From: Tildeniella torsiva UHER 1998/13D
GTDB taxonomy: Bacteria > Cyanobacteriota > Cyanobacteriia > Phormidesmidales > Phormidesmidaceae
Assembly: GCA_019358835.1 (NCBI GenBank)
Contig: JAHHIH010000012.1
Span: forward strand, 62,001 to 126,000
Length of the DNA: 64,000 nt
Reading direction: 5' to 3'
Shown: positions 55,859-64,000 of the stretch, piece by piece
Position numbering within the stretch: position 1 is the stretch's first letter
Layout: every line of letters begins with the position of its first letter
The notes under the pieces: model-generated
Seen by the model: the letters and a program-made list of their open reading frames with translations, nothing else
What the model was told of the DNA's origin: nothing
Database searches by the model: none
Translations under genes and position numbers: made by a program

Positions 55859-56965
55859 CTAGGCAGCCCGCGATAGCGCAAGCTCATCATCAAAGCACAG
55901 CTGCCCGTCTAACACCTGGCGCATCAGCAGACAGGCAATTCCCATACTGTCGAGGGGCTCTGAGAAGTAGTAGCCCTGCATTTTTTGGTAGCCCAACTCT
56001 TTAAGCACCACCAGATCGTCCAGGGTTTCAACCCCTTCGACAATCACATCGAGCCGCAGCCGCTCGGCCAGCATGAATATGGCCTCGCTCATGGCCCAGT
56101 TTTTGTTGCGAATAAACGAGCGATCGATTTTGAGGGTGTCAAAGGGCAGGTCTTGCAGCCGCCCCAGGGAGGAATAGCCGGTGCCAAAATCGTCGATGTA
56201 GAGCTGGATGCCCATCTGGCGCAGTTCGACCAAGGCCCAGAGAGCTAGATCCTTATTTTCAATCAGCGCGCTTTCGGTGACTTCGAGCTTGAGGCTATGG
56301 GGGGCAATCTGATGACGCTCAATGATCTGGCGAATGTTTTCCACCAGGTGGGGATGGCGCAGCTGCACCGCCGAGAGGTTGACGCTAACGCTGAGGGGCG
56401 TGACGGACGGAAACTGGGTCTGCCACTGGCGCAGCTGTCGGCAGGCCTGGTCGAGCAAAAACAGCCCTAGAGTATCGATTAGGTCTGCTTTTTCGGCCAG
56501 GGGAATGAACACCTCCGGAGAAATAATGCCCCGGTGGTCGTGCTGCCATCGGGCCAGGGCCTCAAAACCAATGATCTGGTTGTGTTCGATCGACACAATG
56601 GGCTGGTAGGCCAGGTAAATGGCCTGCTGCTCCACCGCCTGGTGGAGATCGTTTTCGAGCTGAAGCAGCTCTAGCCCGGCGCCCGACAGCAGCGTCAGCA
56701 GGGGGGTGGGCTGGTTTTCTAGGGCGTTGGCAAGCCGGTTGAGGCGATCGGCGTTGTTGATGGCGATCGCCAGCAGCTTTTGGCCATCGTCAGAGAGCGC
56801 CCCCGACTGCTCATACCCCAAGAGCTTGAGCGCCCCCTGAATCGAGGCAAGGGGGGTGCGCAGCTCGTGGCAAATTAGCAGCGAGAGGTCGTCAAAGGGG
56901 TGGCTGGAGCAGTCGGCCAGAGAACACAAGTCTTCACTGGGCCGGGCCGAGTTGGGATACGCCAT
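55859..56965 (-). CDS. HisKA-EAL fusion, probable c-di-GMP phosphodiesterase
   Basis: 368 residues. Residues 22-85 form a histidine-kinase dimerisation domain with a complete H-box, LICHELRTPLASI (H33), but no ATPase domain follows. The rest is a full EAL domain: E135-A-L in FEALARW, NLSAVQL, EVTES, DDFGTGYSSL, KIDRSF and EGVET. H33 could be phosphorylated in trans by another kinase, or the domain may only dimerise the phosphodiesterase. No REC or GGDEF is present. The gene lies near several regulators. The architecture is clear; the control mechanism is inference. Confidence 0.9.
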   Translation of the reverse strand: MAYPNSARPSEDLCSLADCSSHPFDDLSLLICHELRTPLASIQGALKLLGYEQSGALSDDGQKLLAIAINNADRLNRLANALENQPTPLLTLLSGAGLELLQLENDLHQAVEQQAIYLAYQPIVSIEHNQIIGFEALARWQHDHRGIISPEVFIPLAEKADLIDTLGLFLLDQACRQLRQWQTQFPSVTPLSVSVNLSAVQLRHPHLVENIRQIIERHQIAPHSLKLEVTESALIENKDLALWALVELRQMGIQLYIDDFGTGYSSLGRLQDLPFDTLKIDRSFIRNKNWAMSEAIFMLAERLRLDVIVEGVETLDDLVVLKELGYQKMQGYYFSEPLDSMGIACLLMRQVLDGQLCFDDELALSRAA

Positions 56966-57034: not shown

Positions 57035-57277
57035 CTAGGCAATCTGCGATCGCATCTCAACCCAAATGGTGTAGTGGGTTTTAGAGACGGTGATGCACAC
57101 CTTAAAACCTTTACTGCTTTCCTGGGTGGCTTGGCGGTAGGCCTGACTCCGTTCAGCCAGGGCGAACTGCTGCAGGCTAATGTAAAAGTCGTTGCGATAG
57201 AGCATGCCGTCGTGGATGCCCTGGTTCCAGAATTTAAAGGTCGAGATTAAATCCTCAACCACGATCAGGGGGAGCAT
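57035..57277 (-). CDS. Small conserved-looking protein
   Basis: 80 residues: LPLIVVEDLISTFKFWNQGIHDGMLYRNDFY followed by LQQFALAERSQAYRQA and VCITVSKTHYTIWVEMRSQ. Charge and hydrophobic spacing look like a real folded protein; the frame has an ATG at 57277 and another 17 codons upstream. I recall similar short cyanobacterial proteins but cannot name a family. It lies between the HisKA-EAL gene and a receiver gene, with a 16-bp palindrome just upstream, so a regulatory role is possible. Confidence 0.6.
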   Translation of the reverse strand: MLPLIVVEDLISTFKFWNQGIHDGMLYRNDFYISLQQFALAERSQAYRQATQESSKGFKVCITVSKTHYTIWVEMRSQIA

Positions 57278-57361: not shown

Positions 57362-57739
57362 CTACTGCCAGCCCAGGGCCAGCTCGATTTGACCGCCCAG
57401 CAGACCTGGGTCAAAGGGTTTGACCAGCACCGCCCGCGCCCCTGCCGCCACAAAGGACGGCTGGGTCGCCAGCCGCAGGGTGGCCGTGAGTAAAATCACG
57501 GGAATGTGGCAAGTCTCAGCATTTTCACCGAGCTTAATCAGGGTGGCCAGCCCGTCCACCTTGGGCATGATCACATCGAGCAGAATGGCGTCGGGGCGGT
57601 GGGTCGCGGCTAGGGCAACTCCCTCCTCCCCTGAGGCGGCGGTGGTCACGTCCCACTGCTTGGTGATTTCGAGGCTTACCTTGGCGATTTCTCGCACATC
57701 GGCTTCGTCGTCAATGATCAAAATGCGTCGGGCGGTCAT
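57362..57739 (-). CDS. Single-domain response regulator
   Basis: 125 residues, a stand-alone CheY-like receiver: ILIIDDEADVREIA (acidic pocket), phosphoacceptor in AILLDVIMPKVDG, threonine in ILLTATL and lysine in AVLVKPFDP. GGAG lies 8 nt before the ATG. It follows the large REC-wHTH-HPt gene by 48 bp on the same strand, so it may exchange phosphate with that protein's HPt domain. Confidence 0.92.
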   Translation of the reverse strand: MTARRILIIDDEADVREIAKVSLEITKQWDVTTAASGEEGVALAATHRPDAILLDVIMPKVDGLATLIKLGENAETCHIPVILLTATLRLATQPSFVAAGARAVLVKPFDPGLLGGQIELALGWQ

Positions 57740-57787: not shown

Positions 57788-59710
57788 CTACTCAATCGCG
57801 GTCAGCCGCTGGGTTGCCTGCTGGTAAAGCCGCTCCAGGGTTTGGCCATCGGTGGGAAAGGTGGCTTCACCCAGGTGAAGCACCAGATCGTCTGGGCTTG
57901 AGGGTAGCTGATTGCCTAAGACCTGGGCGAGGGTTGGCCCCAAGGCATCGCGGGGCGATCGCCAGTCGGGCGCTAGGGCACCGACCAAAATAGATTGGGC
58001 AGACCAGCGGGCGATCGCATCGCCCCGGCGCAGCAGGCTGGGCAGCACCGCTGCCAGGGCCGCTATGCGCTCAGGGAACCCAGGCTCTAGCTGGAGCAGC
58101 ACCAGACTGAGGGGCTGGCGGTGGCGGTGGGCTAAATGCAGCAGCAGGTCGAGTTCGATGGTGCCCTTGCGGCGGTTGGCCAGGCCGGTGAGGGGGTCGG
58201 TGCCCGCCAGGGTTTGCAGCAGGCGACCCCGCTCTAGCCGCTGAAATAGGCGGTTGACCAACTCCGGCTCCAGAATCGGCTTGGGCAAATAGTCGTCGGC
58301 CCCGGCCTGGTAGAGTTCGTAGACGGCGGTGGCCTCGCGACAGGCGGTGAGAAACAGAATCGGCAGGGTCTGCCAGCGCTCCTGCTGCCGCAGCTGCCGA
58401 CAGAGTTCCACGCCCCTGAGGTGGGGCATATCCAGATCGAGCAGTACCAGGTCGGGGGGGCTGGCCTCCAGGGTGGCCCAGGTCTGGCGCGGGTCATTGA
58501 GGGGCACCACGTCGAGGCCCCAGGGGGGCAGCAGGCGCTGGAGCTGGGCCAAAATGAGCGGGTCGTCGTCAATGGCCAGCACCCGATACCGGGTGTCGGT
58601 GGGGCGGGGCGGCCCAATTGCGGATCGGGTCGTCCCGCCGAGCGGCGCTGAGCTTTCCTCCGGCCCAGCAGCGAGCTGGGCATCGAGCTGACGAACCAGG
58701 GCTTTAAACGCCTCCCCCTCAGCCTCGCTGGGCCGCCTCAGCCACTCCTCCAGACTGCGGGCCAGGTGTGACCCCTCGGCAAAGCCAAACAGCCCTAGGG
58801 ATCCGGCTAGCTTGTGGGCGGCCGCCTGCGCCGCCGCCCGATCCTCCTCTAGTAGGGGGGGCTGGTCTAGGGCGATCGCCGCCCGGTGCAGGGCCGCCAT
58901 GCGATCGCCAATGATGGGCCGAAACTGGTCAAAGGCGGCGATCGCCGCCGCTCGGGCCGCCTCAGCCTTCGCCTGCTCTGGGCCGATCGTCTCTAGCCGG
59001 GGAGGCACCGAGGCCGACAGGGCTGGCTCTGCCGACCGTGGGGCGGGCCTGAGGCGGTAGCCCATGCCGTAGACATTCTCAATCATGTCGTCGGCCCCGG
59101 CCTGCTTGAGCTTGCGCCGCAGTCGCTTGATGTGGGTGCGAATGGTTTCTTCCCCAGGGGAGTCGTCGGCACTCCACAGGCGTTCTAGCAGCACGGTGTT
59201 GCTAAAGATGCGATCGGGATGGCGCAGCAGCAGCTCCAGCAGCCCATACTCCTTAGGGGAAAGCACCACCGCCTGGTCAGCCACCGTTACCAGACCCGCA
59301 TTGGGGTCGAGCTGAAGCAAGCCCCACCGCAGCGTGGGGCTGCTCACCGCATTGGGTCGGCGCAGCAGCGCGCGCAGGCGGGCGGTCAGCTCGGCCAGGG
59401 TGTAGGGTTTAACCAGGTAGTCGTCGGCCCCGGCATTGAGCCCGTCTACTTTGTCGGCGCTGCCGCTGCGCCCGGTCAGTAGCAAAATCGCCCCACTGTA
59501 GCCCGTCTGGCGCAGCCTGCGGCAGAGCGACAGCCCGTCGAGGCCCGGCAGGTCGATGTCCAACACAATTAAATCGTAGGGGGCAGACCGGGCGTATTCC
59601 CAGCCCAAGAGTCCGTCGGTGGTGGTGTCGACGACGTAGTTTTGGGCCGCTAGATCGCTGGTCAGCCGCTCAATTAAGACCTCGTCGTCATCCACTAAAA
59701 GAATTTTCAT
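57788..59710 (-). CDS. Multidomain response regulator (REC-wHTH-HPt-REC-GGDEF')
   Basis: 640 residues. N-terminal receiver (ILLVDDDEVL, D in LIVLDIDLPG, K in YLVKPYT) followed by an OmpR-type winged helix (VLSPKEYGLLELLLRHPDRIFSNTVLLERLW). Then come an HPt domain (AAAHKLAGSLGLFGFAEGS), a second receiver (VLAIDDDPLIL, LVLLDLDMPH, YLPKPI) and a GGDEF-like domain that starts DPLTGLANRRKG. Its active-site loop reads RWSAQSI, with no GG(D/E)EF, so it cannot be a normal cyclase. GAGG precedes MKILLVDDDE; a long upstream open frame is ignored for that reason. It combines phosphorelay and DNA binding in one chain. Likely partners are the adjacent receiver and the giant kinase. Confidence 0.9.
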   Translation of the reverse strand: MKILLVDDDEVLIERLTSDLAAQNYVVDTTTDGLLGWEYARSAPYDLIVLDIDLPGLDGLSLCRRLRQTGYSGAILLLTGRSGSADKVDGLNAGADDYLVKPYTLAELTARLRALLRRPNAVSSPTLRWGLLQLDPNAGLVTVADQAVVLSPKEYGLLELLLRHPDRIFSNTVLLERLWSADDSPGEETIRTHIKRLRRKLKQAGADDMIENVYGMGYRLRPAPRSAEPALSASVPPRLETIGPEQAKAEAARAAAIAAFDQFRPIIGDRMAALHRAAIALDQPPLLEEDRAAAQAAAHKLAGSLGLFGFAEGSHLARSLEEWLRRPSEAEGEAFKALVRQLDAQLAAGPEESSAPLGGTTRSAIGPPRPTDTRYRVLAIDDDPLILAQLQRLLPPWGLDVVPLNDPRQTWATLEASPPDLVLLDLDMPHLRGVELCRQLRQQERWQTLPILFLTACREATAVYELYQAGADDYLPKPILEPELVNRLFQRLERGRLLQTLAGTDPLTGLANRRKGTIELDLLLHLAHRHRQPLSLVLLQLEPGFPERIAALAAVLPSLLRRGDAIARWSAQSILVGALAPDWRSPRDALGPTLAQVLGNQLPSSPDDLVLHLGEATFPTDGQTLERLYQQATQRLTAIE

Positions 59711-60105
59711 GGTGGCCTCATTAATGGCCTCACTGGGCACGGCAGGAGCGTAGCTAGGGTGCCCATGGCGATCGCAGAATCCCCAAGCCAGCGGCGTTTT
59801 GTCCCTTTCTCTGGCCAAATTTTACGCTGCCGTCGGTGTTCACAAGATTGTCACAGTTGCCGCCCATCATGGGCATATTCCTGAAACTGCACTAGCGGGC
59901 AGGAGTTCCTGAGACCGGTGTGGGCGGTCTGACGCGACCCTCAGATCGCCTGCGGGGGCAAGACAGATCGTTGGGGTGGGGGTAGATCGCCCCATCCCAA
60001 CGATCTGTTGTGGTTTTCACTCCCACCGTTTCATTAGTTTTTGGGAAAAGCCCGGCCCAATGGGGAATCTTGGCTACATTGGTCTTGCTCTAACGCCTTG
60101 GATTC
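59711..60105. other. 395-bp divergent intergenic region
   Basis: Separates two signalling genes. It holds a minus-strand motif copy at 59898-59912 and a related TCAGGAATATGCCCA on the minus strand at 59870-59884. A GATCGCCCCATCCCAACGATC palindrome-like block lies near 59985. No gene was seen. Confidence 0.5.
59898..59912 (-). promoter_or_regulatory. Palindrome copy, TCAGGAACTCCTGCC
   Basis: Variant of the recurring motif (one base shorter between arms) about 190 bp before the start of the REC-wHTH-HPt gene, with a second related half-site at 59870-59884. Confidence 0.3.
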
Positions 60106-63100
60106 ATGTCGCCGATCTGCTCCGACCTCGCGATGCTCCACCCCGACCGAGTTGCCGCTGGCGAAACCCTGCTGATCGTCGATGACTCCTTAGAAAACCT
60201 CAGGTTTCTCACCAAGACCCTCAAGGGGCAGGGGTATGGAGTGCGCTGCGCCCGCAGCGGGGCCATGGCGCTGATCGCCGTGAACGCCACCCGCCCCGAC
60301 CTGATCCTGCTGGATATTCGCATGCCCGAGATGGACGGCTACTCGGTGTGCCAGCGGCTCAAGGCCGACCCCAGCACCCAGGCGATTCCGGTGATTTTTC
60401 TCAGCGCCCTCGATGAGGCCCTCGACAAGGTCAAGGCGTTTGAGGTGGGGGGGGCCGACTATCTCACCAAGCCCTTTCAGGTGGAAGAACTGCTGGCCCG
60501 AGTGGCCAACCAGCTGACGATTCGGCGCTTGCAGCAGGGCATGACGGCCCAAAACCAGCAGCTCCAGCAGGAAATCGGCGATCGCCGCCAGGCCGAGACC
60601 CGTCTTCAACAGATGACGGCCCGGCTGTCCACGCTGGTTGAGCATCTCCAGGTGGGGGTGATATTGGAGACCCTCACGGGCCAGGTGGTGATGGTCAACC
60701 AGCCCTACTGTGACCTGTTTCGTCTGGCGTGCCCTGCGACCGCCCTGATTGGTGCCGACGGCCAGACCTTTGCCCAGGACAGCGCCGGACTGTGGCGCGA
60801 CCCCGCCGCCTTTGCCCAGCGCATAGCGGCCCTGCGGCAGGCCCAGCAGCCGGTGGTGGCTGAAGAAATTGCCCTGGCCGACGGTCGCACCCTTGAGCGC
60901 GACTACGTGCCCCTGGGGGGCGATCGCGGCGGTTCGGGCCACCTCTGGCAGTACCGCGACATTACGGCCCGCAAGCAGGCCGAGCAAATTTTGCTGCAAA
61001 ATTCCCAAGCGCTCAACCACTTTAGCCAGAGCCTGAAGCAGCTGCACCGCCTCAGCCTGACCCAGTTTGACAGCTTTGACGCCCTGCTCCACGACTACCT
61101 CGACACCGGTTGCCAGGTGCTAGGGTTTGCCGGTGGTCTGGTAGGCAAAATTGAGGGCGGAGACTACGTGGCGATTGCGATGGAAGCGACCCTGCCCAGG
61201 CTAGAGCCCGACCTGCGCTGCCCCCTTGACGACACCTTTTGTGGCATGGCAATTCAGCAGCAGCGCACCGTGGGCTTTACCCACATCGGTGCCCACCCAG
61301 AGCTGCGCCAACACCCCCTGTATCAAACGCTGCGCCTAGAGTCGTACCTGGGCACCCCGATCTGGGTGGAAGGCGAGGTCTATGGCAACCTGTGCTTTTT
61401 TGACACGACCCCGCGTCCCCAGGGGTTTAACCAGCACGAAACCGAAATTATTGAGCTGATGGCCCAGAGCATTGGCAAGGTGGTCAGCACCGACCGACTA
61501 GAGCAGCAGCGGCAGCGGGCCAGGGCCAAATTACAGCAGAGTGAAGAGCGCTGGCAGCTGGCCATTCAGGGCAGCAACGCGGGCATCTACGACCTCGATT
61601 TTCGTACCCAGACGGCGTTTTTCTCCGAGCGCTACCGGGCGCTGCTGGGCTACAGCGACCCCGTCGCCAACGAGCGGCTGAGCGACGACGACCTGCGCTG
61701 GGAGTCGCGCATTCACCCCGACGATTACGATCGCGTCATGGCGGTGCACCACGCCTACCTGGTCCAGCGCTGCCTGCCCACCTACGAGGTGGAGTACCGG
61801 CTGCGCTGCCGCGACCAGAGCTACAAGTGGGTGATCTCGCGGGGCCAGGCGCTGTGGGATCACCAGGACCAGCCGATTCGCCTGGTGGGTTCGACCGGCG
61901 ACATCAGCGAACGGATGCGGCTTGAAGCCGAACGCAAGCGGGCCGAGGTCGCCCTGCGCCAGAGCGAAGAAAAATTTCGCCAGCTGGCCGAATACATCGA
62001 CAGCGTCTTTTGGATCTACGAACCCCAGCAGCAGCGGTTTGGCTACGTTTCGCCCGCCTACGAGAGCATCTGGGGCCGCCAGCGAGAGGAGCTTTACCAC
62101 AACCCGCTCGCCTGGCTCGAGGCGGTGCACCCCGACGATCGCGATCGGGTGGCGCGGGGTCTGCCCCGCCGCCGCGACCCTGCCGCCCTGGCCCACTTTA
62201 GCTACGACGAAGAGTTTCGCATCGCTCGACCCCAGGGGCAGCAGGCCTGGGTGCGGGTGCGGGCCTTCCCCATTCGCAATGACCAGGGGGAGGTGTACCG
62301 CCTGGTGGGGGTGGCCGAAGACCTCACCCAGGTGAAGCGCCAGGAGGAGTCGCTGCGGCTGATTGTCGAAGGCACCGCCGCCAAAACCGGCCACGACTTC
62401 TTTGAGTCGCTGGTGCGCTATCTGGCCGATATTTTGCAGGTGCGCTACGCCATCGTCACCCAGCGACTGCTGACTGACCCAGGGCGGGTCAGCACCCTGG
62501 CCTTTTGGCAGCAGGGTCAACTGGGCGATCGCCTGGAGTACGACCTGGCGGGCACCCCCTGTGAGCGGGTGGTGGCGGGCGAGGTGGTTTACATACCCCA
62601 GCGGGTGCGGGTGCTCTACCCCGACGATGCCGATTTGGAATTGCTGGGGGCGGTTAGCTTTTTGGGCATTCCCCTGGTAGATGCGGCATCCCAGGTGATT
62701 GGCCACCTGGCGGTGATCGACGATAAACCCATGGCCGAGGATCACACCCGCGAGCTGATTTTGCGCATCTTTGCGGCTCGGGCGGCGGCGGAGCTTAAGC
62801 GCCAGCAGGCCGAAGACGCCCTGCGCCAGGCCCGCGAAACCGCCGATGCCGCCAACCAGGCCAAGAGCGTCTTTCTGGCCAACATGAGCCACGAGCTGCG
62901 TACTCCCCTCAACACCATCATTGGCTTTGCCCAGCTGATCACCCGCGACTGCCATCTCGATGCCGAGGCCCAAGACTACCTGGCAATTATCAGCCGCAGC
63001 GGCGAACACCTGCTGGCGCTGATCAACGACGTGCTCGAGATGTCAAAGATTGAGGCCGGGCGGATTTCGCTCCATATCACCACCTTTGACCTGTCGTACC

Positions 63101-64000
63101 TGCTGTCTAGCCTAGAGGCCATGCTCACGCTCCAGGCCGAGGCCAAGGGGCTCAGCCTCAGTTTTGACTGCGACCCGGCCTTACCCACCTATATCGCCAC
63201 CGACGAGGGCAAACTGCGCCAGGTGCTGATCAATCTGCTGGGCAACGCCATCAAATTTACCCAGACCGGCCGGGTGCTGCTGCGGGTGCGCTGCCAGCCG
63301 CCGCTAGAGCCGCCCTTGGCGGCTGGCCCTGAGGCCGTCGACCTGGAGTTTGCTGTGGTTGACACCGGCCCCGGCATTGCCCCCGAAGAGATGAACCGTC
63401 TTTTTGAGCCGTTTATTCAGAGTACGGCGGGGCTGCGCTGGTCAGAGAATAATCTGGGGCCATCGCACCAGGGCAGCGGCCTGGGGCTGCCGATTAGCCA
63501 ACAGTTTGTGCAGCTGATGGGCGGCGAACTCACCCTGGAAACCCAGCTCAACCAGGGATCAACCTTTACCTTTGTGCTGCCGGTGCAGCGGATCGAGCGA
63601 TCGGCGGTGTTTTCGGCGCTCAACGAACCCCCGATTGAGGGGCTGGCCCCAGGTCAACCCCCCTGGCGGCTGCTGGTGGTCGAAGACCACCCCGCCAACC
63701 GCTATCTGCTGGTGCGCCTGCTCACCTCCGCCGGGTTTGAGGTGCAGGCCGCCCAGGATGGCTATGCCGCCGTTGACCAGGCGCAGACATGGTGCCCCCA
63801 CCTGATCTGGATGGACATTCGCATGCCCGGCCTCGACGGCTACGCCGCCACGGGCCAGATTCGGGCGCTGCACCTCGATCCCAAGCCGGTGATTATTGCC
63901 CTCACCGCCAGCCCCTTTGAAGAGGAGCGCGCTAAAATCTTAGCCGCTGGGTGCGACGACTTTGTGCGCAAGCCCTTTCAAATGCAGGTCATACTGCAAA
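60106..64000 (+). CDS. Giant multisensor hybrid histidine kinase, 3' end outside window
   Basis: At least 1298 residues; the frame is open to the window edge. Domains in order: receiver ([30 protein letters not shown]), coiled coil, PAS, GAF (about 300-460, [11 protein letters not shown]), two PAS domains each ending in a typical PAC segment ([18 protein letters not shown]), GAF (about 770-900), HisKA ([15 protein letters not shown]), HATPase_c ([22 protein letters not shown]) and a C-terminal receiver ([28 protein letters not shown]) running off the edge. ATGs at 60106 and 60133 are both possible starts. The N-terminal receiver makes it a kinase that itself receives phosphate. Signal unknown. 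Confidence 0.9.

Follow-up and report, generated by a model that had tools for sequence, protein, structure and literature searches.

The phosphoacceptor histidine of HisKA domains lies in the motif HExxT/N, and a DHp domain devoid of the CA (HATPase_c) domain is unable to phosphorylate itself. Receiver-bearing c-di-GMP enzymes are common, and in the REC-EAL regulators RocR, PvrR and VieA an EAL phosphodiesterase is controlled by a phosphorelay; PvrR is named a response regulator phosphodiesterase in NCBIfam. The HisKA-EAL protein described here resembles these regulators as an EAL phosphodiesterase that would be placed under phosphorelay control, the difference being that their acceptor is an Asp in a receiver and its candidate acceptor a His in a DHp domain.

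A phosphoacceptor His in a DHp domain without a working ATPase is also the hallmark of Spo0B, ChpT and PhyT, and the HisKA-EAL protein shares this property. PhyT, a DHp protein without a working CA domain, receives its phosphate from the single-domain receiver SdrG, and Spo0F is the single-domain receiver that pairs with Spo0B (PMC5898713); ChpT is unable to autophosphorylate and acts together with the hybrid kinase CckA (PMC3433190). These proteins are described as degenerate kinases or retain an ATPase-like domain and pass the phosphate to another receiver, the DHp of PhyT being of the HWE/HisKA_2 type, whereas HisKA-EAL carries no CA domain and its attached C-terminal domain is an EAL phosphodiesterase and not a degenerate ATPase-like domain. 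EAL sequences of the Caulobacterales and Rhizobiales are reported in combination with HisKA, Hpt, HAMP and HATPase domains (PMC9756655), a domain cluster that, unlike HisKA-EAL, includes HATPase. Alr2306 of Anabaena is described as a REC-GGDEF-EAL protein (PMC13075795), and the excerpts of PMC13075795 and PMC7063779 carry no mention of HisKA. A search of the open-licence literature returned no report of a HATPase-less HisKA-EAL protein among the matches listed.

The window, that is the whole stretch of 64,000 nucleotides analysed from Tildeniella torsiva, encodes on its minus strand (55859..56965) an ATG-started ORF of 368 aa with two domains, a HisKA (DHp) domain at residues 31-82 (56720..56875, minus strand; Pfam PF00512, 42.6 bits against a cut-off of 26.9) and an EAL domain at residues 105-337 (55955..56653, minus strand; Pfam PF00563, 240 bits against a cut-off of 31.3). 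These two were the only Pfam matches with E-values up to 1, HATPase_c, Response_reg, the HPt profile PF01627 and any third family being absent at that threshold, in agreement with the sequence-only reading, which had described a HisKA domain with H33 joined to EAL with no ATPase or receiver. The H-box reads HELRTPL, in which H33-E-L-R-T fits the HExxT/N motif, and H33 is encoded by CAC at 56867-56869 (minus-strand reading). The EAL residues E135, N196, E228, E231, D258, D259, K279, E310 and Q330 are all present, and the protein thus has the domain with metal-binding and catalytic residues expected of an EAL phosphodiesterase, these roles being ones that we take over from known EAL enzymes. The protein is predicted to be a c-di-GMP phosphodiesterase in which a DHp hairpin of the kinase type, without an ATPase of its own, serves as the regulatory domain. 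In a single-chain AlphaFold model, helices are placed at residues 27-35, 39-48 and 59-84, with pLDDT below 50 across residues 1-94, and the linker joining the DHp to the EAL domain is helical at residues 95-112. The host genome (5.84 Mb) holds 28 EAL matches, and among named organisms it is closest to Nodosilinea and related filamentous cyanobacteria.

The HisKA-EAL gene is the last of four minus-strand genes, in the order RppA-type regulator, single-domain receiver, o97 and HisKA-EAL, separated by gaps of 48, 84 and 69 bp. The RppA-type response regulator (57788..59710, minus strand) combines a wHTH, an HPt, a second receiver and an incomplete GGDEF domain as judged by Pfam and NCBIfam; translation more likely starts at residue 37 of the ORF, an ATG at 59710, than at the TTG at 59818, since the RppA match begins at that residue. 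The best Pfam stretch of the GGDEF domain in the 57788-59818 ORF covers model positions 2-40 only, and the domain is probably inactive. The single-domain receiver (REC; 57362..57739, minus strand; 125 aa; Pfam PF00072, 80.9 bits), two genes upstream of HisKA-EAL, has its phospho-site at D55. It is followed by o97 (57035..57277, minus strand), which encodes a conserved protein of 80 aa if started from the ATG at 57277, as the alignment of homologues favours, and of 97 aa as a TTG-started ORF. A divergent gene upstream of this four-gene cluster (60106..64000, plus strand) encodes a hybrid histidine kinase of 1413 aa with REC, PAS, GAF, HisKA, HATPase and a second REC, and extends beyond the end of the window.

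The HisKA-EAL architecture is widespread in cyanobacteria and often adjoins phosphorelay genes. A near-full-length match was present in 25 of 57 genomes comprising the host and its relatives (hand count), and the scan of the genome contigs of close relatives recovered 12 loci in cyanobacteria and a single one in Pseudomonas, the latter matching the window protein only from residue 65 on, inside a frame of 1087 aa. The search for the architecture that the sequence-only reading had called for was carried out with a 13-row profile in 388 Cyanobacteriia genomes and recovered stand-alone HisKA-EAL in at least 54 of them (at least 63 rows in 10 families, hand count), both figures being lower bounds as the best five candidates per genome were scored. 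Rows were counted if they started at query position 31 or earlier, scored above 344 bits and lay in a frame of 327-446 aa; the partial row G244 and the row G156:C87 (921-aa frame) were left out of the 63. One or two stops occur inside the matched stretch in 11 of the 63 rows, and at all 11 loci an open frame spans both domains. Because the same stand-alone architecture recurs in at least 54 of 388 genomes, the window gene is not a fragment, and the two-domain open frames of like length across many genomes rule out chance, a broken kinase or an assembly artefact as well. Among 72,556 plasmid records, three were matched (E-values up to 1e-60), in all three over the EAL part only.

For comparative analysis a set of 65 distinct proteins was assembled after removal of two duplicates and of L108; the G011 copy (L005) lies outside the set. 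L108 (921 aa) had been considered as a longer HisKA-EAL protein and was dropped, its HisKA part being badly aligned and the protein appearing by eye to be GGDEF-EAL. One member, L107, is the first piece of a broken gene, the HisKA-EAL gene at L107:4824-6010 (G336) being split into two overlapping frames. In G105 a tandem pair of HisKA-EAL genes with overlapping stop-to-stop frames was observed (L075:4821-7066). Pfam assigned EAL to 65 of the 65 proteins, HisKA to 64 and a weak DUF6832 to one, and detected neither HATPase_c nor a receiver in any at E-values up to 0.01, the CA domain of a histidine kinase being missing from all 65 at this threshold. At least eight of the 65 fall below the curated Pfam cut-off for HisKA, namely the six proteins without H33 described below, L090 and L098 (eight divergent members were scanned singly).

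A tree of 78 EAL domains (64 HisKA-EAL proteins, the cut-off L107 being excluded, and 14 others at hand as a non-exhaustive outgroup) separates the HisKA-EAL rows from the rest by a branch supported at 95/76, just below the strong mark of the tool, and recovered in 93% of 200 bootstrap trees. The fusion probably had a single origin, since the EAL domains of HisKA-EAL form one branch against the 14 others. The best matches after HisKA-EAL mostly sit in larger proteins. The GGDEF-EAL proteins of cyanobacteria have the EAL family in common with HisKA-EAL, whereas the EAL domains of the latter form a separate branch. At five loci (L040, L109, L110, L111 and L120) a GGDEF-EAL gene of 703-734 aa directly follows HisKA-EAL on the same strand, and four of the HisKA-EAL proteins from these five loci group together (branch support 82/71). 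A recent capture of the DHp from a kinase of the same genome is unsupported, the next-best matches to the window DHp among the other DHps of the host being just 46% and 49% identical and on other contigs.

Across the 65 proteins the H-box is well conserved (H33 in 59, E34 in 64, T37 in 57 and P38 in 61). In seven Nodosilinea-type relatives the identity to the window protein is 0.92-0.93 in HisKA versus 0.78-0.83 in EAL, which points to a strong constraint on the phosphoacceptor domain in these relatives; in the nearest rows the two domains are alike (0.93 and 0.89-0.94, respectively), and in most rows of distant families HisKA is conserved about as much as EAL or less (L100: 0.42 vs 0.56). H33 is replaced in six of the 65, by D in L100, Q in L104 and Y in L102 and in L105, L106 and L112, the last three of one genus, and the checked EAL residues of all six are identical to those of the window protein. 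The loss maps to four changes on the EAL tree (three to four in bootstrap trees), of which strongly supported branches force two; L104 lies on a long branch. Since these six proteins retain an intact EAL domain although residue 33 is Y, D or Q, H33 is not essential everywhere, and the histidine is dispensable in some members though kept in most. T37 or P38 is also altered in five of the six, and the whole motif thus seems to have been released. Four proteins that keep H33 have lost T37, which is H in three of them and I in the fourth; L090, L098 and L107 form a branch with the T37-to-H change. In the whole set, deviations in the EAL domain comprise an A-to-G or A-to-V substitution in the EAL motif of six proteins, the cut-off L107 deviating as well, and the tandem copy L075:5903-7066 has E228K and a changed EAL motif.

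The neighbourhoods were compared at the 58 of 65 loci with at least 2.5 kb of upstream sequence, 52 of which carry H33 and six of which do not. Among the 52 H-bearing loci, about twenty of which belong to the genus of the window, 33 have a same-strand single-domain receiver no more than 3 kb upstream and 30 have o97 in that interval; both are present in 22, at least one of them in 41 and neither in 11. The fetched stretch contains, at any position, an RppA-type regulator in 28 of the 52 and a kinase similar to the hybrid kinase of the window (BLAST E <1e-20) in 41 as a raw count. The receiver together with o97 is found in other families also, for example at L074, L076, L077 and L079 (f15) and L083 (f24), and the receivers outside the close relatives, matched by similarity and counted raw, are mostly 42-67% identical to that of the window. 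D, T and K are kept in all 36 receivers neighbouring HisKA-EAL. The six H-less loci have one receiver, no o97, one RppA-type regulator and two kinases (Fisher p against the H-bearing loci 0.07, 0.009, 0.19 and 0.03, respectively, for four features uncorrected for multiple tests or relatedness, three of the six loci being of one genus), and the association of H33 with these neighbours is suggestive only. L104, with Q33, still adjoins an intact receiver, one of the 36, and is a counterexample to a simple rule. Co-variation of DHp and receiver proved weak and is not specific to the DHp, the partial correlation of DHp with receiver distances given EAL being 0.14 (permutation p 0.045) against 0.56 for EAL with receiver distances given the DHp.

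The o97 family was detected in 131 of the 388 genomes (E-values up to 1e-8), often with paralogues and with at least 13 copies in one genome, the best 13 candidates per genome having been scored. Its core reads FKYWxxGIxxGM...CITVSKTxYxVWxxLRS, and no Pfam match below an E-value of 0.08 was obtained among 22 members. The 15 best-scoring copies all adjoin HisKA-EAL (positions compared by hand, with a profile built from such copies). Because o97 is present in more genomes than HisKA-EAL is, it is not a partner of HisKA-EAL alone.

Starting from the observed architecture, the intact residues, the probable single origin of the fusion and the recurrent neighbourhood, we tentatively favour a Spo0B-like role in which the DHp would obtain phosphate from a receiver of the same locus and thereby gate the phosphodiesterase, without regarding this reading as probable in absolute terms. 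The DHp would dimerise into a four-helix bundle; the hybrid kinase would feed the single-domain receiver and the HPt-bearing regulator; and H33 would be phosphorylated from one of the receivers encoded at the locus, the best candidate being the single-domain REC. Transfer from receiver to DHp would be the simplest route because a stand-alone receiver is encoded in the operon-like cluster. Phosphorylation, or docking of the receiver, would alter the bundle, and the helical linker would pass this change on to the EAL dimer and affect its activity; with co-transcription of the cluster one relay could set both transcription and c-di-GMP breakdown. In favour of this reading are the complete HisKA and EAL domains, the conservation of H33 and E34, the constraint on HisKA in the Nodosilinea-type relatives, the close same-strand spacing of receiver, o97 and HisKA-EAL, the upstream receiver or o97 at 41 of 52 H-bearing loci and their scarcity at H-less loci, and the intact neighbouring receivers. 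It is weakened by the six H-less proteins with an intact EAL domain, by L104 with its intact receiver, by the 11 of 52 H-bearing loci with neither receiver nor o97 upstream, by the weak co-variation of DHp and receiver, by the lack of extra HisKA conservation in most rows of distant families and by the low confidence of the structural model in the DHp. A serious rival, though in our estimate an unlikely one, is that the HisKA hairpin merely dimerises and holds the EAL domain as a scaffold, H33 being a relic or kept for packing. EAL enzymes commonly act as dimers, and pure scaffolding stays a real alternative because H-less members exist, with about four changes on the tree and the EAL domain intact; however, few residues of the domain are as well conserved as H33 and E34, the accompanying change of T37 or P38 in five of the six looks like release of a whole motif, and the recurrent neighbours are phosphorelay proteins.

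The presence of the HExxT motif, and of a receiver gene upstream at 33 of the 52 loci with H33, would also suit a DHp that binds the single-domain receiver and drains its phosphate through the E/T motif beside H33, EAL activity being set by receiver occupancy and not by phosphohistidine that is stored; this seems improbable to us, as four proteins have H or I in place of T37 with H33 kept. About as doubtful is the idea that another kinase uses its ATPase domain to phosphorylate H33 directly, whether in trans or within a mixed dimer. A kinase like the hybrid kinase of the window does occur in 41 of 52 H-bearing loci (raw count), but a mixed dimer would favour near-identical DHps, those of the host genome being at best 46% and 49% identical and elsewhere, and the neighbouring hybrid kinase is absent from the seven matches listed (E-values up to 0.01). 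A separate kinase acting on H33, as the sequence-only reading had proposed, is thus a possible route among others, and the wider proposal of phosphotransfer to the phosphodiesterase stands in part: it accords with the intact phosphoacceptor motif, the missing CA, the intact EAL catalytic residues and the recurrent receiver, HPt-bearing regulator and hybrid kinases, and is weakened by the six of 65 relatives that kept EAL without the histidine. Similarly unlikely is a two-way coupling, with a phosphotransferase and a second-messenger enzyme united in one chain, in which phosphohistidine on a Spo0B-like DHp would gate EAL, EAL-bound c-di-GMP would tune the phosphate flow to the HPt-bearing regulator and o97 would be an added partner.

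The 'unusual direct link' claimed from the sequence was overstated as regards the link itself, receiver-bearing c-di-GMP enzymes being common, although a histidine acceptor is indeed unusual. Receiver-mediated control of c-di-GMP enzymes is routine; HisKA-EAL instead joins a signalling module made of a DHp alone to a phosphodiesterase. Should H33 prove to be a working acceptor, the family would provide a c-di-GMP phosphodiesterase controlled by phosphohistidine and not by phosphoaspartate, and a kinase DHp separated from its ATPase would have been put to a new use. As several lineages have lost the histidine and kept the enzyme, H33-dependent and H33-independent versions may be compared within one family.
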